64,000 bases of DNA, from positions 62,001 to 126,000 of the forward strand of contig JAHLKI010000046.1 of assembly GCA_025602905.1 (NCBI GenBank). Direction: 5' to 3'. Position 1 is the first letter of the stretch; every line of letters starts with the position of its first letter. The stretch is from Phlyctochytrium arcticum. Its lineage: Eukaryota; Chytridiomycota; Chytridiomycetes; Chytridiales; Chytridiaceae. Position numbers and translations under genes: made by a program. This document shows, piece by piece, positions 39,421 through 64,000 of the stretch. Below the pieces are notes generated by a model. It was not told the DNA's origin and ran no database searches. It was given only the letters and a program-made list of their open reading frames with translations.

Positions 39421-39422
39421 GG

Positions 39423-41667: not shown

Positions 41668-41684
41668 GGGTTAGGGTTAGGGTT
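41668..41684 (+). repeat. Telomeric repeat tract at junction 1
   Basis: GGGTTAGGGTTAGGGTTTA joins the broken SANT-like gene to the 3' end of LINE A. The G-rich strand reads rightward, so an ancestral chromosome end would have pointed right. Confidence 0.85.
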
Positions 41685-41993
41685 TATGGTTCGTTTAATT
41701 CAGAAGTATGTGTACAAGTACAAGAAGTAGATACACAAGCTATCTATCTAGAGAATAAACTAACTTGAGAGAGAAATCGAAAAACTAGAGTAAAAATGTC
41801 TGGGAGGAGAGTAGGTGACTAGAAAAAATAGGAGAGTACGCCGGAAAGTACGCTCTATGATGTCTGTAACTATCCAGAGATAGTCCATAGTGATCTTGGG
41901 TGGTTTGGAACCAAAATATATGGCAAAGTTGACAAAAGGTGTGTGTTGAGAGAAAACTGATGAGGTATAGTGATGTTTGGGTTAAGCCAATGT

Positions 41994-42283
41994 TGTAGAG
42001 GGCGCCGAGTTGAGTTGAAATGATTAGGGCCATATCGATCCAACAGGGTTGTATGAGGTAGTGGCGAGAGAAAGGCGGCGAGTGTGTTGATTGTGGCAAA
42101 AGTGATGAGGTATGTTGACTCTCGGCTGTAGTGAATCTTGTAGAGGGCGTCGACTTGAATGGAAATGATTAGGAGCATATCATTCCAGCGACGTTGTATG
42201 AGGTAGTGGCGAGAGGATGTCGAAAAAGAGCGAACATGCTATCAAAAACATGAAGCCAGGCAGCTAGGACGTTGATGAAGCAT
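41994..42283 (-). repeat. 145-bp tandem repeats in the LINE A 3' region
   Basis: Two copies starting at tgtagagggc, 41994 and 42139, exactly 145 bp apart. Each contains ttgaaatgatta..catat and tgtatgaggtagtggcgag. The same unit is found three times in LINE B. Confidence 0.7.
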
Positions 42284-43251
42284 AGAGAAGGTGTTGAGAG
42301 TGTTGCGGGAGAGTGTGGGTGTCGAATGAGGTCAATTGTACTTTGCCAGGTCTTGAATAGCGCGTGCAGTGCTGCGCATCGGCCTGCGCAGTCCAGAGGC
42401 ATGTTGGGCGCCATTCCGAATCCAAAGATGAAGCACGACACTGGGAATGGTGCAGCGCCGTTCCAAGGACATTGTGGATGGCAAAGAAAGGGCATGAGGT
42501 GTCGAAAGTGTCGAAAAAGCGAAATGCTTGACCAGGGTACAATTTCGCGCCGAGGGGTTGAAGACGATGACGAAAAAAAATATAGATAGAGTCCTGGCGT
42601 GCGGGCAGTTGGTGGCGAGAGTGTTGACGAACATGTGGTCCAAGTTTCAGCCGAATCCGACGCGAATTGCCTAATTGAAGTGGTCAACGGACAGAGTGGG
42701 AAAAAATCGCGATATGCAATTCCTCCCAGAATGTCGAAGACATTCTGAACCCAAGGCAAAAAGGGACATGGGACCGCATCCGGACTGGTTGGAGGAAGGG
42801 TGGAGGTGTCGTCCGTGGGTACAACGTCGTTCGGGGAGCCAAAAGACACATTTGTCGTGAGAGGTATGACCCCGGACCTATCACAAAGTCGAAGTTGCCC
42901 AGAAGATGACCTAGGGGCTTGTGATGAGGTACTTTGGTGCGGGGAGTGTGGCTGAAGATGAGGTATGATTTTCAAGCTGATCGGGAGGATTTTCCTTAAG
43001 TCAAGTGGTCGAGAAGGAAAGGACCAGAAAAATCGCGGAAAAACCGTGGCAGCATTCCAAAAAGCATTTCGAACTTGAAACCAGAGGGGGAGTAAGCAGT
43101 AGAGAAAGTAACAGAGTGGGAGCGTGGAGCAGAAACCGAAGTTTCAGTGGTAGGAACGGGGTTTGGTGGCGGGTGTAGGGGGGGGGGGGTGGCGAGAGAT
43201 GTGCGACAATTGATGGAAACATGAGCTTGCTTACTCGGACTTTCACCAGGG

Positions 43252-43547
43252 ACGCCCGGCACGGGGCCGAACGTATGGTGCACCTTTCGGCCCTGCACAG
43301 AGGTTGGGGAGGGATGGGATAGATGTTGTAGGGGGGGTGGCGGGTGATGTGCGGAAGTTGGCGTAGGCATAAGCTTTCTTGCTGAGACTTGTACCAGTGA
43401 CGCCCGGCACTAGGACGAACGTATGGTGCACATGGGATGTTGCTGTGGGGGAGACTGCGGCAATGGTGTCGAATTTTCAAAACGGAAAAAATATCGCGCG
43501 GCCCGACCTCATATCAAATAATCCAGAGAGTAGCTCCAATGCTGCAC
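43252..43547 (-). repeat. 148-bp tandem repeats in the LINE A 3' region
   Basis: acgcccggcac occurs at 43252 and 43400, 148 bp apart, each followed by gaacgtatggtgcac. A 12-base run of G lies just before (43178-43189). LINE B has three copies. Confidence 0.6.
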
Positions 43548-44227
43548 CAAAGAGACCAGAAGGTGTGGGAACATGTACTGGAAGGTATACTGGAGGAGAA
43601 AACGAGGGATGAGATGTGGGATGATGAAAATTACGTTGCTGACGGTCGAATTCGCCCAAAATTTCGAACTTCGCCAAAAGAGCCTCAATCTGTAGGTAGT
43701 TTCGTGGGTTGATAGAAAACATCGTGCCATTCGATAAACTGCAGGTTGGAGACCGGTCGGGACAATGTCAATTAAGAGAATATTAGGAAAGCGGTAGGAT
43801 ACTTATCCGAAACACCGAAATTGACAAAGAACCCGATCCAGAGCACCAACGGCCGTCGGACTTGCACCGCTCGGCCCGCAAAGGGTATCTCGAGAGTTGA
43901 GAGGAGGAGTGGGAGTGGTATGGGGATGATGGAGGGTGATCGACTCGTCAATGCCGGCGGCGTGCCCAAAGCACCCGCGCGACGTGGTTGTGAGGCACGG
44001 GCGATTGACGAGGAGGGACCTGCTTTCGCAGGGTGGATTTTGAAAGGGTTGTGGTGGGGTGTGTTGAGGAGTGGGGTATGATAGGTGTCGAAAAGTTGAT
44101 GGTCCGTTGATTAATGCTGATTTTGGGAAGGATCGCTTGTCAGTTGAGTTTTGAAATTTGGTGCTGACATAATCCCGATTTGGAGCGGAAATCTTGAGGA
44201 ATGGCGAAATGCTGAAAGACAAAGGCC

Positions 44228-47200
44228 TCAAGAGGAACCAGACGAGATGGGGGAAGGGAGCAGCTCGGCCACTGACGGTTGGGGAAGAGCGGGTGGTGGT
44301 CTCGTCAGTGCTTTCTGCTCCTCGGCATCACCCCACTCTTCTTCAAAAAGATCGTTGTAAACAGACTTGAGAAGGCGAGCAAACAAATATCCGTCTCCGT
44401 GGTTCAACGCAGCGTCCAGAGCCGAATATAATTCACCGTCCAGATTTGCCAGATGAAGCCGCTTCTTGTCGAATGTAATCCAAGTATCCAACTGAGACCA
44501 TTCCGCGAGCGCTTCGAAACCAGGCATCGCACAAGTGATCATACACCGGCGGTTGGCAGCTCTCTTGCACACACCGCACATCTTTCGACCCATCATCGTG
44601 TTCTCCCGCCAATGCAAAGCCCAGGAACGGAGCGCGACGGGATAAATCCATAAAGCACGATCGATGTAGGTGCCAGGCCGACGGTTGAGAATGTAAGCCG
44701 GTAGTTGTGCTCCAGGACCAGTTTGATTAACACGACGTTGAACAATGTCTTCAACGCCCTTTTTTCTGATCCAAGACTTCCAACCAATCCGTGGACGTTC
44801 CCCTTCGTTAAGGTCCGCGACACCAACGGCAATCATCCAAGTTTCTATCTCCACAGGTTTCCGCAAACAACGTGGCAAGATGGCATTGATAGAAAGCTCA
44901 GAGACTCCCGGGGTGACAATAGACGACAGATGAAACAATGGGTTTGAGCGCGGCATTCGGTCCAGATGGAGATAGTATGATCCAATCATGGTCACCGCAC
45001 GGTGGTCCCATCTGCCCAAAGCTGACATGCTTTCATGTAATCCGCGCGGTGCCAATCTGCCAAAAATCCATTCCAGACCGCGAATGTGTAGTTGTTCCAG
45101 CCCATCCCGTAGTTGTTTCCGAGCGGGATCATACAAACTCCAGACCCAGAAAGCAGGTAGACCAAAGTCAGTGTGAGAGCGCACAAAGATCTTGTATAAT
45201 GTCAGGCGGACATTTTCAGACCACAAGTCTCCGCTTAGCGTCAATGCCTTTAGCATTTTGTCTGCCTTGCTCAGTCGCACCTCCAAATGTTCTGTCCAGA
45301 TAATTCCGCGCGCAGAAGTGGGGAAACCAAGATACCGATAACTAGTAACATTTGGCACGGCCTTACCGGAAAGTATCAATTCCGGCGGTCCGTCCGCGTC
45401 CCAGCTACCTTTCCAAGTAATCCCACACTTTTTGTTATTGAATAGCATGTCGTTCAAAGTAGCCCAGCCTGAACAAACGTCCAAAAACATTTGAGCTTCT
45501 GCAATGTCGAGAGGTTGTAATTTGAGATCATCGGCATAACCCAGAATAGGTGGGAAGCGTCGAGATCCAATGTCCGTGAAGTCGTTGATAATCAACAAGA
45601 GCGAGTCAATGAAAATGTTGAATAAAAGCGGCGACAGAAGTGAACCTTGAAATAAACCGCATTCCCGCTCCAAGGGACCAGTCAAAGCTCCGTTCACGAC
45701 AAATCTAGAAGACGGCAGCCGACACATCATACTTGAAATCAAAGCGAGAGCCCACACACTGGCTCCGGCCTGCGCGGCGCGTTCCAAAATCAAATGAAAC
45801 CGCACGCGGTCATAGGCAGCTTTCAAGTCGAGGTAAATACAAATATCCGCCCCTAAGCGAATACTTTCGTCACTGACCAAAGCTTGAGTTGTTGCTGCAT
45901 GCCTCGAGCGAAAACCACCTTGCGCGGGATGAACATCAGTCCAAGACTCTTTCTCCCACGCTGACAAAACACGACGTTCAAACAAACGACGCAACACCGA
46001 AGTGTTTGATATTGGCCGGGTATCCTCAGGGGCGACTTTGTCGCCCACCACCTTAGCCAATAACGTTACGTTTGAAGAGTTCCAACAGAGCGGCGTGGTC
46101 CCCAACCGGACACACAAAAAGAAGAATAAAGAGATATGCGTTGCGAAGACTTTGCTACTCATCAAAGCCTTCAATAACACTGGAGGGACATTGTCCGGAC
46201 CAGAACTCTTGTCAGAAGGGTAAGACTGGATAACTTTCTCCACCTGCTCCCAATCGCTAATTTTTTTGGCCATATCCTCCGCTTGCTGGTCATACTGTTC
46301 CGGGCAGTATGGGGCAAGAGAGGGATTAGGTGACGGGCTTTTGAAAATATGGGAGTAATGGGACGTGACGGCCTCCATTGCCGAGACACTGGGATCGTCC
46401 GTACCAATACACGGCTGCTTCCCGCGCATACTCCTTTTGAACAAACGGGTCGCGGTATTAGCATTGGTAATCATACGAAGACCTTCTGCCATCTTGTCCG
46501 GTCTCTTCTTTGCCTCCGAAGGGACATACGAACCGAGAACACGTTCACCAACGTCAAAGATCCAAAGAGACAGAGCTTCACCCACAACATCAAGCACTTC
46601 TTGACGTTCATCGAGAGAAAAAGACGGGCCATCACTTTTCAAACGAGTCAGGGCGTGCGTCAATTTCAGCTCATCCAAATCATACAGCTGGGTGAGTTTT
46701 CTTTGAATCCGTTCATCAGACAGATACTTTGTGAAGAGACGACGTGTGGGAGATTCTTGCGTGTCAGGCGGTGTAAGCGGTGTTATCGGTGAATGTCTCC
46801 ACCGAATTTGCATCATGTCGTGATCTGACTCAACCGGACTAGGAACATAATGCCATTCTAGATCAATATCTTTGGCCAGGATATGATCAACCCGGCTCAG
46901 ACCGCTTGCGGCAGGAATCAATCGCATACTTTGACGGGATGCCGCAGTCCAAAATGTCTTCGCGCGAGGTGCTGGGTGGTTGTTGAATTTCGCTGAATCG
47001 CCGGTCTTTTGACCCAGACGAACATTGATATCTCCAATAATAGCGACGGGGGACGGCGTCGTTTGAGGTGAGAGAGTTGATGAGACTCTGGGTTCGGGAA
47101 GAGAGGGAGGGAGGTAGACAAAATGGAAGGGTGTGTTGTAGAGGGAGATTGTCAGTGAGTGTTCGGATTTTGAGGTGAAGTTGATATGGGATTGAACTCG

Positions 47201-47392
47201 AGGGTGGACAATGGCTAATAGTCCGCCGTTCTGATGGCCTGTGGTGCGGGGAGTTGATGGATAGTAAGACCACCATTGGGAATAGGGGTGTGCCTTGACA
47301 TATGTCCAATCAACAAACCAGGTCTCGGCCACTATAATAATGTCATACGTGTTGTCGTCTAGCAGATCAATGAATGTGTGGAATTTCTTATA
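44228..47392 (-). CDS. LINE A ORF2: endonuclease-reverse transcriptase
   Basis: Open for about 1,054 codons. Endonuclease: VAETW, GDINVRLG (near 47020), SRVDHILAKD, VESDHDMM. Reverse transcriptase: SSGPDNVPPVLLKA, LLAKVVGDKVAPEDTRPISN, HPAQGGFRSRHAATTQALV, CIYLDLKAAYDRV, GLFQGSLLSPLLFNIFIDSL, GYADDLKL with the catalytic YADD (about 45526-45543), then YRYLGFPTS. C-terminal zinc knuckle CGVCKRAANRRCMITC. The frame has no ATG before the endonuclease, and a stop lies just upstream of 47392. The usual N-terminal Asn motif would have to come from another frame overlapping the end of ORF1 (CIHSMGID), which suggests a frame lesion at about 47395. Very similar to LINE B ORF2. Confidence 0.85.
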   Translation of the reverse strand, partial: YKKFHTFIDLLDDNTYDIIIVAETWFVDWTYVKAHPYSQWWSYYPSTPRTTGHQNGGLLAIVHPRVQSHINFTSKSEHSLTISLYNTPFHFVYLPPSLPEPRVSSTLSPQTTPSPVAIIGDINVRLGQKTGDSAKFNNHPAPRAKTFWTAASRQSMRLIPAASGLSRVDHILAKDIDLEWHYVPSPVESDHDMMQIRWRHSPITPLTPPDTQESPTRRLFTKYLSDERIQRKLTQLYDLDELKLTHALTRLKSDGPSFSLDERQEVLDVVGEALSLWIFDVGERVLGSYVPSEAKKRPDKMAEGLRMITNANTATRLFKRSMRGKQPCIGTDDPSVSAMEAVTSHYSHIFKSPSPNPSLAPYCPEQYDQQAEDMAKKISDWEQVEKVIQSYPSDKSSGPDNVPPVLLKALMSSKVFATHISLFFFLCVRLGTTPLCWNSSNVTLLAKVVGDKVAPEDTRPISNTSVLRRLFERRVLSAWEKESWTDVHPAQGGFRSRHAATTQALVSDESIRLGADICIYLDLKAAYDRVRFHLILERAAQAGASVWALALISSMMCRLPSSRFVVNGALTGPLERECGLFQGSLLSPLLFNIFIDSLLLIINDFTDIGSRRFPPILGYADDLKLQPLDIAEAQMFLDVCSGWATLNDMLFNNKKCGITWKGSWDADGPPELILSGKAVPNVTSYRYLGFPTSARGIIWTEHLEVRLSKADKMLKALTLSGDLWSENVRLTLYKIFVRSHTDFGLPAFWVWSLYDPARKQLRDGLEQLHIRGLEWIFGRLAPRGLHESMSALGRWDHRAVTMIGSYYLHLDRMPRSNPLFHLSSIVTPGVSELSINAILPRCLRKPVEIETWMIAVGVADLNEGERPRIGWKSWIRKKGVEDIVQRRVNQTGPGAQLPAYILNRRPGTYIDRALWIYPVALRSWALHWRENTMMGRKMCGVCKRAANRRCMITCAMPGFEALAEWSQLDTWITFDKKRLHLANLDGELYSALDAALNHGDGYLFARLLKSVYNDLFEEEWGDAEEQKALTRPPPALPQPSVAELLPSPISSGSS

Positions 47393-49973
47393 TCAATGCC
47401 CATGGAATGGATGCAGAGAACTCAGCGTCTTCCAAATCGGCAGATGAGTGATCGGGCTCCAGATCAATGGGGACAGAGGGGGGACGCGACGGAGAAGAAG
47501 ATGGTCTAGCCAAGACCTCATCTTTCCAATCACTAAAGTAATCCGCTGTCCTTGATTTAGTTGACCGGTTGATAATATCAGACGCCCGCTGGAGAAAGTG
47601 CTTTACCGCATTACCACGCGGCGCACCATTGAGGCTAGCAGGGTTGTCAGACAATGGGTCAAATGAATGATCCACGTCGAACTGCAGTCTTTCGAGATGC
47701 GCCAAGAAGGCCGGCTTGTAGTGGGCATCGATCAAAACTTCAAGGGTGTTACCAACCCACGAGAGGTTGTGAATCTGAGTCAGGCGGATATGGAAGGCAT
47801 ACATCGCCTTCTTTACTTTACCAAACGGCAAGCGGGGAAAGTTAGAGATATACACTCTTTTTAACTCATGCTTCGATTCCTCTTCTGGGGTATGCTGCTT
47901 TCGCAGTCTTTGGCGAGCTTCAATGGCGGCTTTCGATTCCTTTTCCAACATCAAAAGACCAGCACGGACATCGCTCTGCGTTTTTTCATCATTGAAGCGA
48001 GACGCTATGTCGGCAAAAGTTGGCCGGCCTCTAGTGTCATTTTCAGGACCGGCGACATTGCGGGACGAGACATTTCGCATGGGAGAAGGAACTGGGACCC
48101 AGCCGTTTTGTTCTGTTAACGAACTCGCGGCGGCCTTCGAAAGTGGGGCTGGTGGAACTGTACCACGGCTCTGGTTTGCGATAGAGTTTGTTCCATTGGC
48201 AATGGTTCCATTCTGACCCGCCGCTTGTTCTATCCGAGCACGTTGTTCCGTGTTTACCCGAGGAAGCCTATTGCGCTTAGCAGGAGGAGCGGGTATAGCC
48301 GGGGGCTGAGCTGGGATTCGGGTTATATGTTGTGGCGTTGGGGGCGCGATGACAGGGGTAATTGGGGGGTGAGCTGCTTGTTTCTTTTCCCCCGAGGCCT
48401 TCTTGACTGATTGATTTCCTTGCTTTTGCTTCTGACTCGCACCAAACTGGGCAGCCATCCTTTCCTCCAACTTGCGCTCAAACTGTTCATCGATCCGCTC
48501 CAACCGAGCATTCAGCGCATCGTTGAATTGGTCCATGTTCTTCTGCAACTGCTCCTGCATCAGAGACATCGCCCGCTCCAGGTAACCGTTGCGTTTCTTC
48601 AATTTCTCATTCTCCTCGCGCAGGATTGCTAATTCCCACTGAGCAGAGCCTTCGACCGCTTTTACGACACCGCTTTCGCCAGCCTTCCCTTCAGGAGGAC
48701 CAGTACTTTCCTTCCGCTCATGAACGACTATCTTTGGACCTTGCGCTCGCTTCCGTGGCGACTCCTTTGGCTCTTCACGTTCCGCTAAATTGCTGAGGCG
48801 ACGTCGTCCGCGCTCGACGCTACTATCGACCGTGCGGGATGCACTACGCTGTCTCTGTTGAACCGAGGCCGACCGTTGACTGTTGAGAGCGCTGTTCGGC
48901 TTTGATGTGACTTTTTGCCTGACTGACTGATGCTTCTTCGCTACAGGTTCTCGCTGGGCACCTCCCTTCAAGCGAGCTTTCGTCTGCGGCCTACTTTCCG
49001 CTTCATTCTCAACGTCGGCTTCATCGGCCTCATCCAGATTAATGCGACCTGCTTCACTGACAATTGGCTCACTTTCCAAGACACCGTCCGCACGACTTCC
49101 CTTGTCACCGCGGGACCTTTCCTTACTCTTTGCGACAGCTTTCACTGTACCCGTTGTTCCTCGGAGGCGTTCATCTTGAGCAACCGCCTCAAAAGCCTGC
49201 AACAAATCACGTACTTCGTCGTCGTTGCCACCACCACCGTCTTCACCGCTATTATCGTTGCCATCATCACCACCGTCTTCACCGCTATTATCGTTGCCAA
49301 CAACCGGCCCGTGTTCACCATTCTCAACCACGCTGTCATCGCCTGCACCGTCCCGACCATCATGCCGCCCAGTACCATTCTCTCCGGTCACTGCCTCCTT
49401 TTCATCGACACCGTCGTCACCATCACCACGTTCAACCGCTATCTCTTCCTCAAAGACATCGTCGTCCCTTTCACGCCCAACCACTTTGCCCTTGGTGCGC
49501 CCATTGCCAATCACCACTTCCTCATCAAATTCCTCATCATCACGACCAAGATAAGCATCGACATCATCGTCAAATAGATTGGCATCGCTATCATTGTCAG
49601 ATACGTCCAAACCCAGGCTGGCAACGTCGTCCTTCCACCCTTGACTACGGGATCTCGTCCCCTTCTCACGCAACTTGCCTTCGCGACGCATATGCTTATG
49701 CACTTCTTCAACCGCACACCGTTCTCCATCAGACTGCTCATTGGCACTCAGGAACTCATCGTCCCCGTTCGCCGCGGCACCACTGCTTGCAAACTGAGAC
49801 CAACCACGGTCTCTCTGCTCTGACACTGGCACACGCTGTGCCCTTCCCTGCGCCTTTCCAAAAAAGCTTGTCACCAGCTGCGTTGTTTTCGATGCAACGG
49901 GACTCTTGACCGCAAGCTTCTTCTTGGCTACACTGCCATCGGCATCAGGGTGAGAAGCTGGTTGGCGGGCACT
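47388..49973 (-). CDS. LINE A ORF1: RNA-binding-type protein, 5' truncated
   Basis: Open for about 861 codons up to the telomeric junction, with no ATG there, so the N-terminus is missing. The N-terminal third is strongly acidic (NLFDDDVDAYLGRDDEEFDE and Gly/Asp/Glu-rich stretches at about 49100-49600). The middle is basic and Ser-rich. A coiled coil follows (LAILREENEKLKKRNGYLER, QFERKLEERMAAQFG). The C-terminal part HELKRVYISNFPRLPFGKVK, LSWVGNTLEVLI resembles the RRM-like domain of LINE ORF1 proteins and matches LINE E ORF1 in position (LELSFIGANILELLV). ORF1 of LINEs coats the RNA to form the transposition particle. Confidence 0.75.
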   Translation of the reverse strand, partial: SARQPASHPDADGSVAKKKLAVKSPVASKTTQLVTSFFGKAQGRAQRVPVSEQRDRGWSQFASSGAAANGDDEFLSANEQSDGERCAVEEVHKHMRREGKLREKGTRSRSQGWKDDVASLGLDVSDNDSDANLFDDDVDAYLGRDDEEFDEEVVIGNGRTKGKVVGRERDDDVFEEEIAVERGDGDDGVDEKEAVTGENGTGRHDGRDGAGDDSVVENGEHGPVVGNDNSGEDGGDDGNDNSGEDGGGGNDDEVRDLLQAFEAVAQDERLRGTTGTVKAVAKSKERSRGDKGSRADGVLESEPIVSEAGRINLDEADEADVENEAESRPQTKARLKGGAQREPVAKKHQSVRQKVTSKPNSALNSQRSASVQQRQRSASRTVDSSVERGRRRLSNLAEREEPKESPRKRAQGPKIVVHERKESTGPPEGKAGESGVVKAVEGSAQWELAILREENEKLKKRNGYLERAMSLMQEQLQKNMDQFNDALNARLERIDEQFERKLEERMAAQFGASQKQKQGNQSVKKASGEKKQAAHPPITPVIAPPTPQHITRIPAQPPAIPAPPAKRNRLPRVNTEQRARIEQAAGQNGTIANGTNSIANQSRGTVPPAPLSKAAASSLTEQNGWVPVPSPMRNVSSRNVAGPENDTRGRPTFADIASRFNDEKTQSDVRAGLLMLEKESKAAIEARQRLRKQHTPEEESKHELKRVYISNFPRLPFGKVKKAMYAFHIRLTQIHNLSWVGNTLEVLIDAHYKPAFLAHLERLQFDVDHSFDPLSDNPASLNGAPRGNAVKHFLQRASDIINRSTKSRTADYFSDWKDEVLARPSSSPSRPPSVPIDLEPDHSSADLEDAEFSASIPWALI

Positions 49974-49975
49974 CT

Positions 49976-49999
49976 TTAGGGTTAGGAGTTAGGGTTCGT
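49976..49999 (+). repeat. Telomeric repeat tract at junction 2 (LINE A 5' end / LINE B 3' end)
   Basis: tttagggttaggagttagg then gttcg lies between the 5'-truncated edge of LINE A and the 3' end of LINE B. The part GGAGTTAGGGTTCG also occurs at junction 4, so it probably belongs to the element's own 3' terminus. Confidence 0.8.
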
Positions 50000-50300
50000 T
50001 TAATTCAGAAGAGTGTGTAGAAATACAAGAAGTAGATCTACAAGCTATCTATCTAAAGACTAGACCAAAAGTCAAGAAAAAATGCAGAACTAAGGTAAAA
50101 TGTGTCAGGAAAGGGAGTAGATGACGAGAACAAATAGAAGAGTACGCCGGAAGGTACGCTCTATGATGTCTGTAGGTATCCAGAAGTAGTCCATAGGGAT
50201 CTTGGTTTGTTTGGGACCAAAATGTGTGGGAAAAATGACAAATGTTGTGTTTTTGTGGCAAAGATGATGAGGTATTGTGTCGTTTGGGAGTAGTAAATCT

Positions 50301-50735
50301 TGTAGAGGGCGTTGAGTTGGATTGAAATGATTAGGGCCATATTGATCCAGAGCTGAGATATGAGGCAGTGGCAAGAAAATGGTGGCGAGGGTGAGATTTG
50401 TGACCAAAGTAATGAAGCAAGGTGACTTGCTGCCTAGTTGAATCTTGTAGCGGGCGTTGACGTGAGTTGAAATGATTAAGGGCATGTCGAGTCAGCGGTC
50501 TTGTATGAGGTAATGGCAAGGAAATGGCGGCAAAGGTGTGAATTGTGATCAAACTGATCAAACAATGTGACTTGCGGGTGTAGATAATCGTGTAGAGGGC
50601 GTCAACTTGAATTGAAATGGTGAGGGACATTTTGACTCAGCGACGTTGTATGAGGTGGTGGCTAACAAATGGCAAAAAGACCGGAGATGTCATCAAAAAC
50701 ATGAAGCCATGCGGCTAGGACGTTGATGATGCATA
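50301..50735 (-). repeat. 145-bp tandem repeats in the LINE B 3' region (three copies)
   Basis: Units begin at tgtag 50301, 50446 and 50591, exactly 145 bp apart, each with gggcgt, ttgaaatg and atgaggcagtgg-like blocks. The units have diverged from one another but keep the same period as in LINE A. Confidence 0.75.
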
Positions 50736-51701
50736 GAAAAGGTGCTGGGGATGTTGTTTGAGGGTGTAGGTGTCGAAAGAGGTCAATTGTACTATGCTAG
50801 GTCTTGAATAGCGAGCATGGTGCTGCGCAACGACCTGCGCAGTAGAGAAGCATCTTGTGCGCAATTCGAAATCCAAAGACGTCGCCGGGTGGAGGGAGTG
50901 ATGCAACGACGATGAGTGGACGTTGAAGATGGCAACGAATGGGCGGTTGGTGTCAAAAGAGGTGAAAAATGTCGAAATCCTTGAGGGGGTACCAAACACA
51001 CCCGCGACGTTGAAGAAGACGATGAAGAAGGGGAATCAGAGACCCGGGGAGCTGGCGGGTGATGGGGGGAGTGTTGAGGAAGGCGTGGTCCAATTTGCAA
51101 CCAAATCCGGTACGATTTGCTTAATTGAAGCGGTCCAGTAGGGCAGTGGGAAAAACGCGCAGTAACAGTTCCTCCCAGAATGGCGAAGCCATTCTGAACC
51201 CAGGACACAGGGGGACTTCGAGCGGCATCCCGAAGGGATGCAGAAAGGTAAGAGGTGTCTGCTGTTGATTGAGTATGATGCCCATAGAGCCGTCCGTGAC
51301 CGTTTTCCCGCGATTTACCACCGTGACGGACAATGACAGTGAACTTGACGAAATCAGCCCATACGACGCTGAATACATTGTCGTTGGTAGGGAATACGTG
51401 GGAAATGGTGTGGAACAAATCTGACAGCCAACGGAGACACCTCACCTAAGGCGAAATGACACAGAGGCGTGGTACCCAAAATCGCCACGGCCCGTCCCTT
51501 CAGTACAACGTACGCACCGTAACGTCTACCACTGCAGCAAAAATCCAGAAGCAGCAGACAAAGTATACGGAGAGAGGCACGAAGCAGAAACCGAAGTTTC
51601 AGAGGTGGGAGAAGGATTTGGTGACTGGTATAGGGGGAGTGGCAAGAGATGAGCGGCATTTGATGGAAACATGGGCTAGCTTACTGGGCATTACGCCAGG
51701 G

Positions 51702-52144
51702 ACGCCCGGCACGAGGCCGAACGTATGGCCACCTGTCGGCCGTGCCCAGAGGTTGGGGGAGAGATGGGGTTGATGGTGTAGGGGGGTGGTGAGAGGTGTG
51801 CGGCAAATGGAGGAAACATGGGCTAGCTTACTGGGCATTACACCAGGGACGCCCAGCACGAGGCCGAGCGTATGGCCACCTTTCGGCCGTGCCCAGAGGT
51901 TGGGGGAGAGATGGGGTTGATGGTGTAGGGGGGGTGGCGGGTGATGTGTCGAAGTTGGCGTAGGCGTAAGCTTTCTTGCTGAAACTTTTACCAGTGACGC
52001 CCAGCACTAGGCCGAGCGTTTGGTGCACACTTGATGTCGGTAGGGGGGAAACTGGAGAAGGGGTATCGAATTTTCAAAATGGAAAAAATATCGCGGGACC
52101 CGACCTCATATCAAAAAATCCAGAGAGTAGCTCCACTGCTGCAC
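51702..52144 (-). repeat. ~148-bp tandem repeats in the LINE B 3' region (three copies)
   Basis: acgccc boxes at 51702, 51849 and 51997 (147 and 148 bp apart), each preceded by ccaggg or ccagtg and followed by gaggccgaacgtatgg-like sequence. The first two units are nearly identical. Confidence 0.7.
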
Positions 52145-52822
52145 CGAAGTGACCAGAAGGTGTGGAAACATGTACCCGAAGGTAGACTGGAGGATAAGGC
52201 GAGGGATGAGATGTGGGGTGTTGAAAAATACGGTGTTGAGAGTCGATATCGGCCAAAATTTCGAACTTCGTCAAAAGAGCCTCAATCCAGAAGTGGTGTC
52301 GTGAGTTGATAGAGAACATCGTCCCATTCAATAAACTGCAGGTTGGAGTTCGGTCGGAAGCAGATCAATTAAGAGAAGTTTAGGAATACGGCAGGTACTT
52401 ATCCAATAAGACCGGAATTGATAATGCGACACGTCCAGAGCTCCAACGGCCATCGGACTTTCACCTCTTGGCCCGCAAGGGATATTTCGAGAGTTGGATG
52501 GAGGAGTGGGAGGGGTATGGGGATGTTGGGGGGTGCTCGACTCGTCACTGCCGGCGGCGTGCCCGAAGGACCCGCGCAACGTGGTTGTGAGCCACGGGCA
52601 AGTGACGAGGAGGGGAGAGCTTTCGCAGGGTGGTTGTTGAGAGGGTTATGGAGGGGTGACTTGAGGAGTGGTGTATGAAAGGTGTCAAGAAAGTGATGAA
52701 CCGTTGATTAATGTCGGTTTTGGAACTGGTGCTTGTCTGTTGAAATTTGAGATCTGGTGCTGACGTAATCACCGTTTGGAGCGGAAATCTTGAAGAGTTG
52801 CAAAAGTTGAGAGACAAGGACC

Positions 52823-55732
52823 TCAAGAGGAACCAGAGGCGACGGGGGATGGGAGCAGCTCGGCAACTGATGGTTGGGGAAGAGCGGGAGGTGGTCTTGT
52901 CAGTGCTTTTTGCTCCTCGGCATCACCCCATTCTTCTTCAAAGAGATCGGCGTAAACAGACTTGAGCAAGCGAGCAAACAAATAGCCGTCCCCGTGGTTC
53001 AACGCAGCGTCCAGAGCCGAATACAGTTCACCATCCAGGTTTGCCAAATGAAGCCGCTTCCTATCAAAGGTGATCCAAGTATCCAACTGGGACCATTCCG
53101 CGAGCGCTTCAAAACCAGGCAAGGCACAGGTGATCATACACCGGCGGTTGGCAGCTCTCTTGCAAACTCCACACATCTTGCGACCCATCATCGTATTCTC
53201 CCGCCAATGCAGCGCCCATGATCGGAGCGCAACGGGTTGAATCCAAAATGCACGGTCGATGTATGTGCCAGGCCGGCGGTTGAGAATGTAAGCGGGTAGT
53301 TGAGCGCCCGGGCCGACTTGATTGACACGACGTTGAACAATGTCTTCAACGCCCTTCTTGCGAATCCAAGCTTTCCAACCAATGCGAGGACGTTCTCCTT
53401 CCTTCAGATCCGCGATACCGGCGGCAGTCATCCAAGCTTCTATCTCCACCGGTTTCCGCAGACACCGTGGCAATATGGCATTGATAGATAACTCCGAGAC
53501 GCCGGGGTTGACAACAGACGATAAGTGAAACAACGGGTTTGAGCGGGGCATCCAGTCCAAGTGGATATAGTAGGAACCAATCATGGTCACCGCACGGTGA
53601 TCCCATTTGCCCAACGCCGACATACTTTCGTGCAACCCGCGCGGCGGCAGTCTTCCGAAGATCCATTCCAGCCCGCGGATATGAAGTTGTTCCAACCCAT
53701 CTCGCGTTTGCTTGCGATCTTGATCATGCATACTCCAAACCCAAAAGGCGGGAAGACCGAAGTCAGTGTGGGATCGCACAAAGATCTTGTAAAGTGTCAA
53801 GCGGACATTTTCACACCAAAGATCGCCGCTAAGCATCAGTGCCTTCAGCATTTTGTTTGCCTTGCTCAGTCGAACCTCCAGATGTTCTGACCAAATGATG
53901 CCGCGGGATGAAGTGGGGAAGCCCAGATACCGGTAACTGGACACATTTGGCACGGCCTTACCGGAGAGTATCAACTCCGGCGGGCCATCCGCGTCCCAGC
54001 TACCTTTCCAGGTTATCCCGCACTTCTTGTGATTAAATATCATGTCATTTAATGTTGCCCAGGCCGAGCAGGCGTCCAGAAACATTTGCGCTTCTTGGAT
54101 GTCCAAAGGCTGTAATTTCAAATCATCGGCATACCCAAGGATAGGAGGAAATCGGCGTGAGGCAATGTCTGTAAATTCATTGATGAAAACGAGCAGCGAG
54201 TCTATGAAGATGTTGAAAAGGAGTGGGGATAGGAGTGACCCTTGAAAGAGACCACACTCCCGTTCCAATGAACTAGTCAAAACTCCATTGACCACAAATC
54301 TAGACGATGGCTGCCGACACATCATACTGGATATCAGAGCCAGTGCCCACACACCAGCTCCGGCTTGTCTTGCCCGTTCCAAAATCAAATGAAATCGGAC
54401 GCGGTCATAGGCAGCTTTGAGGTCAAGGTAAATAGAGATATCCGCCCCTAAACGGATACTTTCATCACTGACTAACGCTTGAGTTGTTGCCGCATGCCGA
54501 GACCGGAAACCGCCCTGTGCTGGATGCACCGCGCTCCACGGCTCTTTTTCAAAAACAGACAAGACTCGGCGTTCAAACAATCGACGCAACACCGAAGTGT
54601 TTGATATAGGCCGGGTGTCCTCCGGGGCGACTTTGTCGCCCACCACCTTGGCCAATAACGTAACGTTCGAGGAGTTCCAACAGAGCGGTGTGGTCCCCAA
54701 CCGGACACACAGGAAAAAGAATAAAGAGATATGTGAGGCGAAAACTTTGCTACTCATCAACGCTTTCAGCAACACTGGCGGGACATTGTCCGGACCTGAA
54801 CTCTTCTCAGACGGGTAAGACTGAATGACTTTTTCCACTTGCTCCCATTCGCTAATTTGCTTGGCCATATCCTCCGCTTGCTGGTCATACTGTTCCGGGC
54901 AGTATGGGGCAAGTGGGGGATTAATTGAAGGACTCTTGAAAATGTCGGCATAGTGAGAGGTAACGGCATCCATTGCCGAAACAGTTGGATCATCCGTACC
55001 GATACGCGGTTGTTTGCCACGCATACTTCTCTTGAATAATCGGGTGGCGGTATTGGCATTGGTAATAAGACGCAAACTTTCTTGCATCTTATCCGGCCGC
55101 TTCTTTGCTTCCGAAGGAACATACGACCCGAGAACACGCTCGCCAACATCAAATATCCAGAGAGAAAGAGCTTCACCAATAACATCAATAACTTCTTGAC
55201 GTTCATCGAGAGAAAAGGACGGGCCATCGCTTTTCAAACGAGCAAGGGCGTAGGTCAACTTCAACTCATCCAAATCATATTGCTGAATGAGTTTTTTCTG
55301 GATCCGTTCATCACAAAGATACTTTGTGAAGAGGCGACGGGTAGGAGACTCTTGGGTTGCGGGAGGTGTCAAAGGCGTAGTAGGTGAATGACTCCAACGA
55401 ATGCGCATCATGTCATGATCTGACTCGACGGGACTAGGGACATAGTGCCATTCAAGCTCAATGTCCTTGGCCAGGACATGATCCACACGACTAATTCCAC
55501 TCGCGGCCGGGATTAACCGCAAGCTTTGACGGGACGCACCGGTCCAGAAAGTCTTAGCGCGTGGGGCAGGATGGTTATTGAATTTCGCGGAATCACCGGT
55601 CTTTCGACCAAGGCGAACGTTGAAATCTCCAATAATGGCGACGGGGGGCGGCGTCGTTTGAGAAGAGATAATTGCGGAGACTTGTGGTTCGGGTAGAGAG
55701 GGAGGGAGGTAGATGAAGTGGAAGGGTGTGTT
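52823..55732 (-). CDS. LINE B ORF2: endonuclease (partial) and reverse transcriptase
   Basis: Open over its whole remaining length of about 970 codons. It starts at the truncation with YNTPFHFIYLPPSLPEP, then GDFNVRLGRKTGDSAKF, SRVDHVLAKD and VESDHDMM. The reverse-transcriptase block is complete: SSGPDNVPPVLLKA, HPAQGGFRSRHAATTQALV, SIYLDLKAAYDRV, GLFQGSLLSPLLFNIFIDSL, GYADDLKLQPL (about 54120-54140). The C-terminal knuckle CGVCKRAANRRCMITC is kept. No stop or frameshift was seen, so the copy looks young, but without the start and first endonuclease motifs it cannot act alone. Confidence 0.85.
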   Translation of the reverse strand, partial: NTPFHFIYLPPSLPEPQVSAIISSQTTPPPVAIIGDFNVRLGRKTGDSAKFNNHPAPRAKTFWTGASRQSLRLIPAASGISRVDHVLAKDIELEWHYVPSPVESDHDMMRIRWSHSPTTPLTPPATQESPTRRLFTKYLCDERIQKKLIQQYDLDELKLTYALARLKSDGPSFSLDERQEVIDVIGEALSLWIFDVGERVLGSYVPSEAKKRPDKMQESLRLITNANTATRLFKRSMRGKQPRIGTDDPTVSAMDAVTSHYADIFKSPSINPPLAPYCPEQYDQQAEDMAKQISEWEQVEKVIQSYPSEKSSGPDNVPPVLLKALMSSKVFASHISLFFFLCVRLGTTPLCWNSSNVTLLAKVVGDKVAPEDTRPISNTSVLRRLFERRVLSVFEKEPWSAVHPAQGGFRSRHAATTQALVSDESIRLGADISIYLDLKAAYDRVRFHLILERARQAGAGVWALALISSMMCRQPSSRFVVNGVLTSSLERECGLFQGSLLSPLLFNIFIDSLLVFINEFTDIASRRFPPILGYADDLKLQPLDIQEAQMFLDACSAWATLNDMIFNHKKCGITWKGSWDADGPPELILSGKAVPNVSSYRYLGFPTSSRGIIWSEHLEVRLSKANKMLKALMLSGDLWCENVRLTLYKIFVRSHTDFGLPAFWVWSMHDQDRKQTRDGLEQLHIRGLEWIFGRLPPRGLHESMSALGKWDHRAVTMIGSYYIHLDWMPRSNPLFHLSSVVNPGVSELSINAILPRCLRKPVEIEAWMTAAGIADLKEGERPRIGWKAWIRKKGVEDIVQRRVNQVGPGAQLPAYILNRRPGTYIDRAFWIQPVALRSWALHWRENTMMGRKMCGVCKRAANRRCMITCALPGFEALAEWSQLDTWITFDRKRLHLANLDGELYSALDAALNHGDGYLFARLLKSVYADLFEEEWGDAEEQKALTRPPPALPQPSVAELLPSPVASGSS

Positions 55733-55733
55733 G

Positions 55734-55743
55734 TAGGGTTAGG
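55734..55743 (+). repeat. Short telomeric tract at junction 3 (LINE B / unit C)
   Basis: agggttagga directly at the 5' truncation of LINE B and before the 3' end of unit C. Confidence 0.65.
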
Positions 55744-56948
55744 AATAACGGTTCTTATTAGGCTGGAGGCAATGTAGATACATCAGGTACTATCTAAATG
55801 ACTAAAGTAATCAAGCTACATAGAGAAATGTCCAAAAAAAAGTGAAAACAAGTATAAATGGTCGAAAAAGTAGCATAAATACGCCGTGAAACACGCCAAA
55901 GCATGGCCAGGATATGTCCAGTAACTCCAAAGAATAGTGTGGGAACTTGCAAATTCTCATGGAATGGGCAATTTTTGGGAGGAAACTTGAAATTTGAGAG
56001 AAAAGTTGAAATGGTGATAAAGGAAGTGAGGACCAGAGTTGTTAGGAGAGTTAACCGGCGTGCGCAGAGTAGTGCTGAGTTGAAATCAAGGGGCAGCAGG
56101 CTTGCTTTCTGAAAAAACTTTGTGGTAAGGTGGGAAAATGTGGAAAAAATGTCAACTTCATGCCTTGGGCATGATGAGAGAGCTTGAAAATGGTGTGTGC
56201 GGGGATTGCCATAGTCTACAAATGGTGTTACGGGAAGCTGTGCCGAGTTTGAGGTCATTTGAGTGATTTTTGATGGAGTTGGAAAAAATGAGGTATTGAT
56301 AGTGTTTTCCCATATTTTGCAGAAGTCATATTAGAATGAACAAATACGGCAGGAGGATGATGAGATTTCGCCCACAGTTGCCGGCATGGGTGGTGTATGG
56401 GGTGGTGGGGTCATACTGGCTGGATGGGCGCATTTCAGGGAGCGCAGTATGAGGGAAGAGGTGTTTTTTGTGGATGTCTGGTCTTGAAGAGCTGAAGGCA
56501 GGGAGAGATGATGGGCCTCACTAGTACATGTAGTAGTCGGAGCCAGGGCGGCTGTTGTTCATTGAGAGCCCAGATCGACTTAGGGACAGGAGACCACAGC
56601 AGGAGGAGAGAAGCGTGGGAAAAAAACGAAACTGGGTGATGTCGAGTCAACAACCGGCCAGAGACGGTCGACGCACATGCCCCATGGGCTGGCAAGCGGG
56701 GACGTGGATGAGTTGACTTAAGAGCATACCGCATTAGCACCAAAAGTGAGGCCAGGAGGGGAAATCGGGTGTTTTGCCGAAATAGTAGATTGCAAGACTT
56801 GAGGTATTGAATTCCAGTCAAAATGAGGCAAACTGATACTAGGGTATTCCATTTGGGTACCATTTCGAGGCTGGGACGAAGTCCCAGAACGAGAAATGCA
56901 TTTTGGAATTTGATGGGTTTTATTGTTGGTGGGTGGAGATGAATGCCA
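55744..56948 (-). mobile_element. Unit C: 3' fragment of a second LINE family
   Basis: About 1.2 kb with no retrotransposon ORF. It starts at a telomeric tract (ataacggttcttattagg) and ends at another. Its 3'-like features resemble the other units: short G-rich blocks and a stem-loop (56871-56887) identical to two in LINE E. It is interpreted as a strongly 5'-truncated element related to LINE E; orientation is inferred from the neighbours. Confidence 0.6.
56871..56887 (-). other. Stem-loop in unit C
   Basis: CTGGGACGAAGTCCCAG: a 7-bp perfect stem with a 3-base loop. The same 17 bases occur twice in LINE E. Confidence 0.6.
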
Positions 56949-56999
56949 GGGTTAGGAGTTAGGGTTCGTTAGGGTTAGGGTTAGGAGTTAGGGTTCGTT
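56949..56999 (+). repeat. Compound telomeric tract with an element stub, junction 4
   Basis: Reads agggttaggagttagggttc, then gttagggttagggttagg, then again GGAGTTAGGGTTCG. The first GGAGTTAGGGTTCG is the terminal signature of the A/B family without any following element, that is, a stub of roughly 15-20 bp between two telomere tracts. Confidence 0.75.
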
Positions 57000-57481
57000 T
57001 AATTCAGAAGAGTGTGTAGAAATACAAGAAGTAGATCTACAAGCTATCTATCTAAAGACTAGACCAAAAGTCAAGAAAAAATGCAGAACTAAGGTAAAAT
57101 GTGTCAGGAAAGGGAGTAGATGACGAGAACAAATAGAAGAGTACGCCGGAAGGTACGCTCTATGATGTCTGTAGGTATCCAGAAGTAGTCCATAGGGATC
57201 TTGGTTTGTTTGGGACCAAAATGTGTGGGAAAAATGACAAATGTTGTGTTTTTGTGGCAAAGATGATGAGGTATTGTGTCGTTTGGGAGTAGTAAATCTT
57301 GTAGAGGGCGTTGAGTTGGATTGAAATGATTAGGGCCATATTGATCCAGAGCTGAGATATGAGGCAGTGGCAAGAAAATGGTGGCGAGGGTGAGATTTGT
57401 GACCAAAGTAATGAAGCAAGGTGACTTGCTGCCTAGTTGAATCTTGTAGCGGGCGTTGACGTGAGTTGAAATGATTAAGGG
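57000..57481 (-). mobile_element. Unit D: 3'-end fragment identical to LINE B
   Basis: About 480 bp that appear base-for-base identical to LINE B 49998-50479 by eye, including two 145-bp-spaced tgtag boxes (57300 and 57445). It is cut at 57481, where cttagggttagg follows. It is a very short 5'-truncated copy, so it should have arrived recently. Confidence 0.8.
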
Positions 57482-57493
57482 CTTAGGGTTAGG
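57482..57493 (+). repeat. Telomeric tract at junction 5 (unit D / LINE E)
   Basis: cttagggttagg separates truncated unit D from the 3' end of LINE E (atgtgaggagagtg). Confidence 0.7.
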
Positions 57494-57915: not shown

Positions 57916-57981
57916 CTGGGACGAAGTCCCAGAGTAGAAGACGGTGGTGGTAACAATTCCAGAGCTGGGACGAAGTCCCAG
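57916..57981 (-). repeat. Two tandem stem-loops in the LINE E 3' region
   Basis: CTGGGACGAAGTCCCAG at 57916-57932 and 57965-57981, in a 49-bp tandem unit (caattccagagctggg...). In RNA sense this folds as CUGGGAC-UUC-GUCCCAG. Confidence 0.65.
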
Positions 57982-58274
57982 AGTAAAAAAGGATGGTCGG
58001 GGAGAGTGTTGCGTGGTCTGGGGGAGGTCGAAGGCCGGGTGGTATTAATGATGGGGATGGCCAGGACGTGGGGTAGCGGGGGTTGCACACAGCGGTGATT
58101 TTGGTGAAGGGCCCGATGGAATTAGTGATGGGGATGGCCAGGAGGTAATGGGGATGAGAAATGCGTGGGAGGGGTGAATGCAGGCTGCGCGGTGCCGATG
58201 GTAACGGCATACGCCGGGAGATGATGTGGGGAGAGTTGTCGGTGGGAGAGAAGGCGTGGAGGGTTGCTGTGTCC

Positions 58275-61200: not shown

Positions 61201-62140
61201 ATAACGGTGTTTCTTCGGCAGAGGCCAGAGCGGTAAGTAGTGGTCCCCGAAAGGCTAAGTACTTCTGACATACACGTTCGCACACGTCGGTCCGAACGAG
61301 GTCGCGCAGATGGATAGATCGGCTTTCTGACGCGGCCCCGTCCACTCCCCACCAACCAGGAGGATAATTAACCGGACGTCTTTCTCCGGGCCTGGCTGAT
61401 GGTGAGTGCCCGCTAGCTAGAGTCTGGAGGGGAGAGGGAAGAGAAGAGAGTTCGAGAGACATTAGTCCATGATCAGAGCGAATGACATTACGATAGTAGC
61501 CCCAGTCCGGAACTAGTCCAGGCTGTGCAAACACGAGATCTGTTGTAGTCTTGCCGTGGGTAGGTCGGGTATGAATAAGGTCGTGGGTATCGGTGATGGT
61601 GAAGATGGTATCGCGCCGGCCAGGCTCGGTGGTAGTGGAATCATTGGTGAGAGCGCCCAGACGGATATTAACGTCGCCAAGGAGAATATGGGGAGGGGGA
61701 TGTTGTGTGAGGATGGTAGTGATAGTATCGTCGTCGAGGCGGGGAGGGAGGTACACAGCGCGGATGATGTGGTGAAAGTACCGGAAGGTAATTGAGAATT
61801 CACTGACACCGATGAGGGAGACATGGTGTTGGTAGAGGGGAGGGACAACAAGAATCAGACCACCATTTTGATGGCCGACGGTGCGCGCTGTTGCGGGGAG
61901 GGTAGAGCTGGCCATGATCCAGTTACAAGACGTAGCATTCCTGGGCACGCCCCACGTCTCTGCAACGACGAGGGCGCCCCACTGCCAGCGGTCAAAAAGC
62001 TCCTTGAGTGTGGTATATTTGGCATCACTTAGTCCTTGGGCATTGACATAGGCGAGGGTATATGGGAGACGAGGTATATGGTCGGGGGGTATAGGGGGAG
62101 GATCGTGGTCTCTGTCGCGGGGTGGAGTTTGGCTAATCAT
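58275..62140 (-). pseudogene. LINE E ORF2: endonuclease-reverse transcriptase with two lesions
   Basis: Starts at ATG 62140, which overlaps the ORF1 stop in ATGA. Endonuclease: LAYVNAQGLSDAKY, VVAETWG, GDVNIRLGALTND, RSDHGLMSLEL. Reverse transcriptase: GGPDGLHQTLL, TSKLVLIPKTT, CRPISLTQILRRIFEGRL. A 1-nt frame change then occurs near 60520, and the new frame continues HPSQGGFQRRQGSTHLAL, FLDVVGAYDHV, GLFQGSVLSPLLFNLFIDPL, LFFADDIKL (FADD instead of YADD, about 60091-60116). An in-frame TGA at 60018-60020 interrupts next, then SEYKYLGYPHTRRGI, the knuckle CPICRQRLTRGHIVDC and a Pro/Ser-rich tail. The TGA fits a CGA-to-TGA change. Confidence 0.8.
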
Positions 62141-64000
62141 TCTTCTAGCGGCATACTTCCCTTGGACATAGTGGGGGTGATGTGGGTGAGGGGATCCTCA
62201 AACTCTTCATTATCAGAGACGACGTCCATATCGGCGGTGGGGGAGCTGGCTTTGTTGGTCGTAGTATTTGGGTGGCCAGGACGGTGGAGGATTGTACCCG
62301 AAGGGTAGGTCGGCGGGGGAGTTGATTGGTTGAGGGAGGGAGTGGTGGACAGGTCCTGGGTTCGGGTGTCGGTAGGGGGTGCCGCAATGTCCATGTCGGA
62401 AGGTGATGACGGGCGGGAAGGAGGTGGTGCGCGTGTGTCTTCGGGGATGGGAGGGTAGCGGTCCGCAAAGCGCTTTGCACGGTTATCATCGACGAGTTTC
62501 ATCACGCATTCGCGGAGAGGAAGGCCGGGGGTGGTGTAGGGGGAGAAGGAGTCCGGGAAGAGAGGGAGAAGGTCGGCGGTGGTGGCAAGGGTGAGGTAGA
62601 AGGTCGCGACCATTGGGGAGACGGTACGGGACAAGATGCGGTGGAGTCGTTTGGCGGCGTGGTCACGGACGGTCTTGCGCTGTTCTTCGGTAGGGGATTC
62701 GCTGCCAGAACGCGTCGGGTCATAGTTGTCGAGGACGGGGAGGCCAACGTCTTTCAGTTTGGCAATCAGAGTGGGGGCATGCTCGGGGCGAACCAGTAGT
62801 TCGAGGATATTGGCTCCAATGAAAGATAGTTCGAGTATCTTGGTAGTGTCGATGGAGAGATTGTGGAGAATGTTGCGGAGTTCGGCGTAGTGTCCCCGGT
62901 AGGTACACCGCGCGTGGATGAGGACGGGGGTGGGTTGGGCGGCGGGATCGCGGCGGAAGGGAAGACGATTGGTTGGGCGGGGGTTGAGACGACGGAGAGA
63001 GTCAACAATCATCGGCTTTTGCTCCGAGGGGAATCGTGCGGCAATTTGAGCAAAGGAAGGACGGGCATAAGGGGTGGTGGCAGTAGCTGTTGCAGCAGCG
63101 GGGGTAGTGGAGAGCGGGCCGACGCGATTGGGGGAGGTAGTGGTAGCGGGGATGTTGGGGGTGGGCCTAGCGGAGATCTGAGGGGGAGAAGAACCGTTAG
63201 CAATTGCAGGGAGAAGAACGGATGGGGAAGAGTCAATTTTAGTCACCAACGAGGCAACCAGACCGGCGAGAGAAGTCATCATAGTTGTGGTGTGTTCCAT
63301 GAAAGCATTGACACGGTTATCGGTGTCTTCTTGGCGTTTGGCAGAGTCCTTCATAAACGCAGCCAGGATGGGGTCGGTGTGGGTGGGGACAGTGATGGCG
63401 GTGGTGGGAGTAGGTGTGGGAAAGACGGGGATGGTGTGGGTGAGCGTGAGCATGGGCATTTGGGTGAGGAGAGCATTGTCATTGGTGAGGTCGACGGTGG
63501 CGGTGGCAGGGGCGGCAATGGTGGTAGTAGTAGTGGGTTGTTGGGTGGTGATGGGTGCGTCGACGTCGAAGGGAGTGGGGGATTGACCGGTGGGGCGGCG
63601 AGCCGCGGGGGTAGGCGAGAGGCGGCGCGCGAGCGGTGTGTCCGCGGGCGGGCGTGGTTGGAAAGGTACGGGGGAAGCGCGGCGAGGAGGAGGAGAAAGG
63701 GAGAGCGAACGCTCTCCCAATGAAGGAGAGGAACGGCGGCGTTTGTTGGTAGCGGATTTGGGAAGAACGGGGGGCAAAGCGTTGTTGGAGGGGATAGCGG
63801 GGAGGTTGTTTACTTTGAGCGCATCCTGTAGGGTGATCTTGGTCGAGCACGCTTGACATTTGAGGCGAAGATTCTTGCCGTTCATGCCATCGCTATTGAA
63901 GCTTCCGATACAGCCGTTTTCCTTACAGACTAGAGCCTTGCGGTGTTCGGCAAAGTGGGTCTTTAATAGGGCAACCTCGGGGCTGTCGGGCTTGCGTGAA
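62137..64000 (-). CDS. LINE E ORF1 (5' end outside window)
   Basis: Open from the stop at 62137-62139 to the right edge, at least 620 codons. Near the visible N-terminus is a zinc-ribbon-like set of cysteines: VCKENGC, then LKCQACSTKIT (about 63840-63930). A Pro/Ser/Thr-rich linker follows. The C-terminal domain (VLIHARCTYRGHYAELRNIL, ILELSFIGANILELLV, LIAKLKDVGLPV) is RRM-like and aligns with LINE A ORF1. The stop overlaps the ORF2 start by one base in ATGA, an arrangement typical of termination-reinitiation. Confidence 0.75.
   Translation of the reverse strand, partial: SRKPDSPEVALLKTHFAEHRKALVCKENGCIGSFNSDGMNGKNLRLKCQACSTKITLQDALKVNNLPAIPSNNALPPVLPKSATNKRRRSSPSLGERSLSLSPPPRRASPVPFQPRPPADTPLARRLSPTPAARRPTGQSPTPFDVDAPITTQQPTTTTTIAAPATATVDLTNDNALLTQMPMLTLTHTIPVFPTPTPTTAITVPTHTDPILAAFMKDSAKRQEDTDNRVNAFMEHTTTMMTSLAGLVASLVTKIDSSPSVLLPAIANGSSPPQISARPTPNIPATTTSPNRVGPLSTTPAAATATATTPYARPSFAQIAARFPSEQKPMIVDSLRRLNPRPTNRLPFRRDPAAQPTPVLIHARCTYRGHYAELRNILHNLSIDTTKILELSFIGANILELLVRPEHAPTLIAKLKDVGLPVLDNYDPTRSGSESPTEEQRKTVRDHAAKRLHRILSRTVSPMVATFYLTLATTADLLPLFPDSFSPYTTPGLPLRECVMKLVDDNRAKRFADRYPPIPEDTRAPPPSRPSSPSDMDIAAPPTDTRTQDLSTTPSLNQSTPPPTYPSGTILHRPGHPNTTTNKASSPTADMDVVSDNEEFEDPLTHITPTMSKGSMPLEE

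Follow-up and report, generated by a model that had tools for sequence, protein, structure and literature searches.

LINE retrotransposons with telomere-like 3' tails stacked in one orientation toward a contig end of a probably zoosporic fungus

Short telomere-like tracts punctuate a head-to-tail stack of long interspersed nuclear element (LINE) retrotransposons in the 64,000-nucleotide stretch analysed here (the window; G000:C46:62001-126000, in an assembly of 31.48 Mb and 91 contigs). Are these tracts remnants of telomeres to which elements became attached, or do they belong to the elements? The evidence points to the second answer, and we think it probable, though only modestly so, that LINEs with an element-borne telomeric tail were added in turn at eroded ends and were later spread by recombination.

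Telomere-like tracts at the 3' ends of stacked elements

Self-comparison and junction reading gave the layout A1-A2-B-A3-C-B'-C', with all elements on the minus strand and their 3' ends inward, and this single orientation is kept from window position 41668 to the end of contig C46 at 136,586, which lies 10.6 kb beyond the window. Tracts with their G-rich strand on the plus strand lie at 41668-41682, 49976-49994, 55734-55743, 56948-56993 and 57483-57493, each being the 3' end of a minus-strand LINE. The one-orientation stack with a tract at each 3' junction that the original prediction had described is thereby confirmed for all five tracts, and it continues to the contig end.

A genome search for such 3' ends returned 63 rows; one chance core match inside C (locus L050) was dropped, and the remaining rows come down to 37 junctions that differ in family, inner flank or tail length. 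A perfect repeat of 6-16 nt precedes the family core in 36 of these 37 junctions, the exception being C50:88436, where a T is inserted in the tract, and the tract does not exceed about three repeats in any of the 37, interior copies included. The 3' end of the copies consists of AGGGTTAGG and the family core, sometimes with additional repeats, about 1.5 at most, and the tails abut non-telomeric DNA directly, or else another copy, in its interior or its 5' array. All but one of the distinct junctions have a non-telomeric inner side; in the exception it is another (21-nt) A tail. The tracts also have family-specific variants (TTAGGGTTAGGAGTTAGGGTTCG in A2, TAGGGTTAGGAATAACGG in B and TTAGGGTTAGGATGTGAGG in C), and because these recur at unrelated flanks elsewhere, the tracts look like element 3' tails. 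The A1 tail, too, is found on copies in contigs C12 and C27, with other flanks. Separate telomere tracts at the junctions were considered and rejected, since the tails are family-specific.

The original prediction had read each tract as the remnant of a telomerase-made telomere whose TTAGGG end primed reverse transcription, with attachment alternating with telomere addition. A gene for telomerase reverse transcriptase (TERT) is indeed present, and tract length differs among junctions. Moreover, in the parts of the published accounts used here and below for known telomeric elements (PMC12857005, PMC7367193, PMC8381367, PMC12810828, PMC5537684, PMC10088271, PMC2861651), (TTAGGG)n stretches ranging from half a repeat to >20 repeats lie between MoTeR arrays, and FoTeR 3' ends have 3-7 repeats, read there as telomere. 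Against this, the tracts at all 37 junctions stop at about three repeats and give way to the family-specific variants and core, the lower bound of AGGGTTAGG holds everywhere except at the junction with the inserted T, the inner sides are non-telomeric as described, and interior copies carry the tract as well. We therefore regard telomere priming as unlikely, although, TERT being present, telomerase could still have added one or two repeats at a junction.

The motif TAGGGTTAGGA occurs 56 times genome-wide, compared with 24 times in a reversed control, and 50 of the 56 are LINE tails; around the other six, the fetched sequences have no LINE similarity. Plain TTAGGGTTAGGG occurs twice in the window, where shuffles give an expectation of 0.00. 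Genome-wide it is not enriched (19 versus 21 in the reversed control); eight of the 19 are LINE tails and the other 11 have no family core by eye. Chance occurrence of TTAGGG was rejected on the window shuffles and on the share of TAGGGTTAGGA sites that are LINE tails, set against the control. The base preceding the tract is often T where the tract begins TTAGGG, in small numbers.

The elements and their proteins

LINE A1 (41668..49975) has its 3' tail at 41668-41682, reading GGGTTAGGGTTAGGG on the plus strand, and its 5' end abuts the A2 tail. Its second open reading frame (ORF2; 44228..47392, minus strand, 1054 amino acids) encodes an APE-type endonuclease and a reverse transcriptase (RT), as judged by Pfam and motifs. 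An ORF1-like frame of 866 amino acids from stop to stop (47388..49988, minus strand) has no Pfam match, and as the 5' junction at 49975 falls within it, the frame may lack its start. LINE A2 (49976..55733, 3' tail 49976-49998) is 5'-truncated, and the truncation cuts the endonuclease part of its 971-residue ORF2 fragment (52823..55738, minus strand, by Pfam). Only the final ~1.2 kb of LINE B is present (55734..56947, 3' tail 55734-55743), 99.75% identical to B' at C46:127140-128355. A double tail follows at 56948..56998, with a 21-nt A tail (56948-56968) and then the tail of A3; a B-A joint at C3:1716857 is without the extra part. A3 is reduced to its final ~0.5 kb (56969..57482) and is 100% identical to A2 over 508 bp. 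LINE C extends from 57483, with its tail at 57483-57493, through the window end at 64000 to C46:127140, its 5' end lying in a tandem-repeat array of 63-bp period (C46:126764-127141). Beyond the window, B' begins at C46:127140 and is about 8.69 kb long, and C' continues from it to the contig end, both again on the minus strand. Every unit had been held to be 5'-truncated, which C, reaching its 5' array, is not. As to the five separate units originally counted, 56948-56998 is a double A tail and A2-B-A belongs to a recurring 7.0-kb unit.

The window contains three families, A (with two subfamilies), B and C, where two, possibly unrelated, had been proposed; all have an APE endonuclease and RT. 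At the amino acid level, ORF2 identity is 58% between A and B, 90.5% over 970 residues between A1 and A2, and about 29-30% between C or D and A or B, D being known from a full-length copy of 7.99 kb at C57:56455-64448 with open ORF1 (757 amino acids) and ORF2 (1121 amino acids) and a 22-bp 5' array. These identities place the elements in one extended LINE group, and unrelated families were rejected on the A-B value of 58% and that of 29% for C against A or B. The 5' end of B is likewise an array, of 19 bp (L122, L098). At C3:1715250-1715900 (L098), a B copy without its last 90 bp and tail adjoins a 19-bp tandem array.

RVT_1 scores above its cut-off in A1, A2, B, D and one C frame, and the APE-type domain, N-terminal to the RT, does so in B, C and D and falls just below in A1 and A2. 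The A1 ORF2 gives 70.7 bits for RVT_1 and 22.9 bits for Exo_endo_phos (cut-off 24.5), and the A2 ORF2 72.6 and 22 bits. The ORF2 domains of C lie in separate frames, the endonuclease (PF14529, 32.8 bits) in 60455-62197 and the RT (PF00078, 53.8 bits) in 60018-60548. The motifs GDxN, SDH and [YF]ADD, which we take to be diagnostic, are present in A1 (as GDIN, SDH and YADD), B and D, and structure matches show that the RT resembles those of L1 ORF2 and R2. The C-terminal part of the A1 ORF1-like frame is 33% identical to B ORF1; no CCHC knuckle was found in ORF1 of A, B or D by the pattern used. Neither a restriction-like endonuclease, for which no dedicated profile search was made, nor a Myb family appeared among the Pfam matches. 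The general features of APE-type LINEs are thus present, namely two ORFs, an APE endonuclease and RT in ORF2, and variable 5' truncation.

Order of additions, position and later copying

A later insertion inside an earlier element should leave the earlier element resuming beyond it. Among the 12 overlying units with both ends seen (five in C46, four in C57 and three in C27, the C-B' joint being common to C46 and C27), none is followed by such a resumption within the assembled part. Many interior copies with target-site duplications and without TTAGGG had been named as telling against end attachment; the three interior copies tested (C12:697644-702096, C41:42019-47051 and C6:414923-434569) have the tail, and with no more than 4 nt in common between the flanks compared, they show no sign of a target-site duplication. 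On their 5' side these three join other DNA with no tract, a comparison that excludes D at C6:724111. The lack of resumption and of duplication fits addition to free DNA ends, with the interior copies as relics; for Magnaporthe oryzae, the source passages describe internal relics that keep the 3' telomere motif and propose them as relics of end additions.

A hand tabulation covered 58 tail-bearing 3' ends, and for 36 of them a contig end is no more than 35 kb away on the 5' side; these 36 include seven outside the clusters counted next (C50, 2; C75, 3; C63, 1; left end of C8, 1). Where a cluster runs off a contig end, as nine do (C3, C46, C57, C33, C8 right, C66, C65, C47 and C28), the 5' end is outward in every case, for which the coin-toss probability is 0.002, or 0.008 for the seven distinct inner flanks. 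Stacks face each other 5' to 5' in five contigs (C50, C27, C17, C75 and C8 left). The contig groups C41/C63, C6/C65/C66 and C33/C8 have identical inner flanks beside their stacks, being haplotype copies or subtelomeric duplications.

Clusters of this kind might also arise from ordinary LINEs with a simple-sequence tail that insert anywhere, their distribution reflecting subtelomeric tolerance and the sites at which contigs break. Interior copies do exist, contigs tend to break in repeats, and Hebe is a known subtelomeric LINE with target-site duplications in the account consulted; the absence of resumption in 12 units and of duplication in three of three copies, together with the outward orientation in nine of nine clusters, makes this account quite improbable in our judgement.

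Several observations weigh against successive addition at ends. Interior copies are found at C12, at two places in C6, and at C41 with its near-duplicate C63; the C17 copies lie 110 kb inside their contig; and there are further interior fragments without a 3' end, such as C4:574215-575502. One B copy (C3:1715732) begins at B position 91 beside the 19-bp array, without a tail, and an underlying element could yet resume beyond an assembled end. True telomeres are not in the assembly, since (TTAGGG)4 is absent from all 31.48 Mb and neither telomere repeats nor C46-stack sequence was found at any of 39 contig ends (500 bp each, from C1-C21 with C8 and the right end of C3 set aside), and consequently no stack is proven terminal. 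Finally, three of the contigs with facing stacks have one and the same inverted joint between them, at which C position 1762 meets position 3705 head to head, with different flanks, at C50:75878-81343 (L050), C27:33350-38815 (L114) and C8:1-4883 (L051). It is either an end-to-end fusion that spread or a single chimeric joint that the assembler used more than once.

This inverted joint and the shared flanks of the three contig groups are what one would expect if repeats had been chained in false order during assembly. Dozens of joints nevertheless obey one rule, the order A2-B-A3-C is found in both C46 and C3, and C57 has another order under the same rule, so that we consider an assembly artefact very improbable.

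The 7.0-kb A2-B-A unit recurs in C3 and C6 at about 100% identity, with periods of 6997-6999 bp and three A copies in each, and the units are therefore not all independent attachments. The inner flank of A2-B-A is a different one in each of C46, C6 and C3, and C-B'-C' is common to C46 and C27 at about 100% with different flanks. Blocks of ~100% identity between contigs, the 7.0-kb tandem unit among them, point to later recombination, and copying of outward blocks and tandem amplification are described for MoTeR arrays of M. oryzae in the passages cited. Recombination might even have done nearly all the work, with worn ends capturing the outward stacks of other chromosomes by break-induced replication from short TTAGGG motifs and retrotransposition making few junctions. 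The blocks on three and two inner flanks speak for this, as does the report of such capture and amplification in M. oryzae. Yet independent A copies have flanks of their own and have diverged (C57 99.0%, C6 99.2% over 2 kb, C33 86%), many different family-on-family joints occur, and ORFs are open in D, A1 and B; recombination alone strikes us as a poor prospect, if a shade better than indiscriminate insertion. It seems that elements were added independently and that outward blocks were copied as well.

Addition at ends followed by recombination could proceed as follows. The transcript of a two-ORF LINE probably ends in about two telomere-complement repeats, and the RT would start from the 3'-OH primer at a DNA end left by erosion or breakage. 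The tail would be copied first, writing TTAGGGTTAGG, and the body afterwards, and erosion would then shorten the new end, beginning at the 5' side of the element, until another element joins. Events between stacks (break-induced replication, unequal exchange or rolling-circle copying) may have produced the identical outward blocks and 7.0-kb tandems, and the tail might serve telomerase as a seed for extension. Of the end-attachment cycle in a zoosporic fungus put forward in the original prediction, successive additions toward the contig end and the zoosporic fungal host are supported, and telomere priming and alternation with telomerase are not. A bolder version, possible but doubtful, is that a whole APE-type LINE group carries a telomerase-like template, some two CCCUAA repeats, at the 3' end of its RNA and repairs non-telomeric DNA ends that are worn or broken by writing TTAGGG and only then a kilobase-long element; telomerase, the addition of LINEs and recombination among their stacks would together maintain the chromosome ends of this fungus.

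Known telomeric elements and the host genome

In the source passages, MoTeR1/2 (M. oryzae), FoTeR (Fusarium oxysporum) and CNL1 (Cryptococcus) are fungal LINEs in head-to-tail arrays at chromosome ends with 5' ends outward, which the stacks here resemble at contig ends, and like the present elements they have a short 3' telomere motif, 5' truncation, interior relics that keep the motif and tandem amplification; FoTeR shares the 5' tandem repeats as well. MoTeR and FoTeR, however, have a restriction-like endonuclease C-terminal to the RT, and CNL1 is placed beside MoTeR, whereas the elements here are APE-type with two ORFs. The tracts in those systems are read as target telomere (for MoTeR up to >20 repeats), and here they are at most about three repeats and part of the element. 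HeT-A, TART and TAHRE of Drosophila likewise form head-to-tail arrays with 3' ends inward, erosion truncation and addition onto DNA ends, but they end in a 3' oligo(A) tail in an organism without telomerase, in contrast to the telomere-like tail and TERT found here. The stack works like MoTeR or HeT-A arrays and departs from each at a defining point, the endonuclease type for MoTeR and the tail and telomerase for HeT-A.

Other systems share some features, again as given in those passages. TRAS and SART of Bombyx are APE-type LINEs tied to telomere repeats in the presence of telomerase, but they insert inside telomere arrays by endonuclease specificity, and here no repeat array flanks any junction seen. 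The Athena Penelope-like elements of rotifers and GilM/GilT of Giardia form end-directed stacks with 5' truncation, and most Athena copies have a short 3' telomeric stretch, read as attachment to uncapped ends; Athena has no endonuclease and an RT nearest telomerase, unlike the APE domain and the L1 ORF2 and R2 structure matches here. Hebe of Adineta vaga is an APE-type two-ORF LINE concentrated near telomeres, but with a poly(A) tail, target-site duplications of 7-12 bp in intact copies and no 5' truncation. The fungal telomere LINEs of those passages, MoTeR, FoTeR and CNL1, belong together in one R2/CRE-like group whose endonuclease is restriction-like, and APE-type LINEs in a similar role would, if the proposal is true, be a convergent case. 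An element-borne telomeric tail suggests a route from an ordinary LINE to an end-healing element and would, on the same proviso, be a step between retrotransposon tails and telomerase templates. Among the matches listed from open-licence PMC papers, no title or abstract opening reports telomeric LINEs in zoosporic fungi.

The genome encodes both chitin synthase and radial-spoke domains, which together support a zoosporic fungus, and the host is probably one with swimming spores. The suggested search for TERT found a gene with an RNA-binding domain, five of whose six PDB matches are TERT, a C-terminal extension and a weak TEN match. No RT core was matched among the ORFs tested, and two ORFs of the TERT region gave no PDB match; loss of telomerase was rejected on the presence of the gene. 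The telomere repeat of the chytrid Batrachochytrium dendrobatidis is given as TTAGGG in the part of PMC11797018 consulted, and we infer the same repeat for the present genome.

Elsewhere in the window, a coding repeat of ~1.1 kb occupies 10193-22263 in six copies, in both orientations and 73-93% identical, one of which was tested and has no Pfam match. Ankyrin-repeat genes lie immediately inside the stack, at 33576-40632, with one part duplicated at 81% identity.

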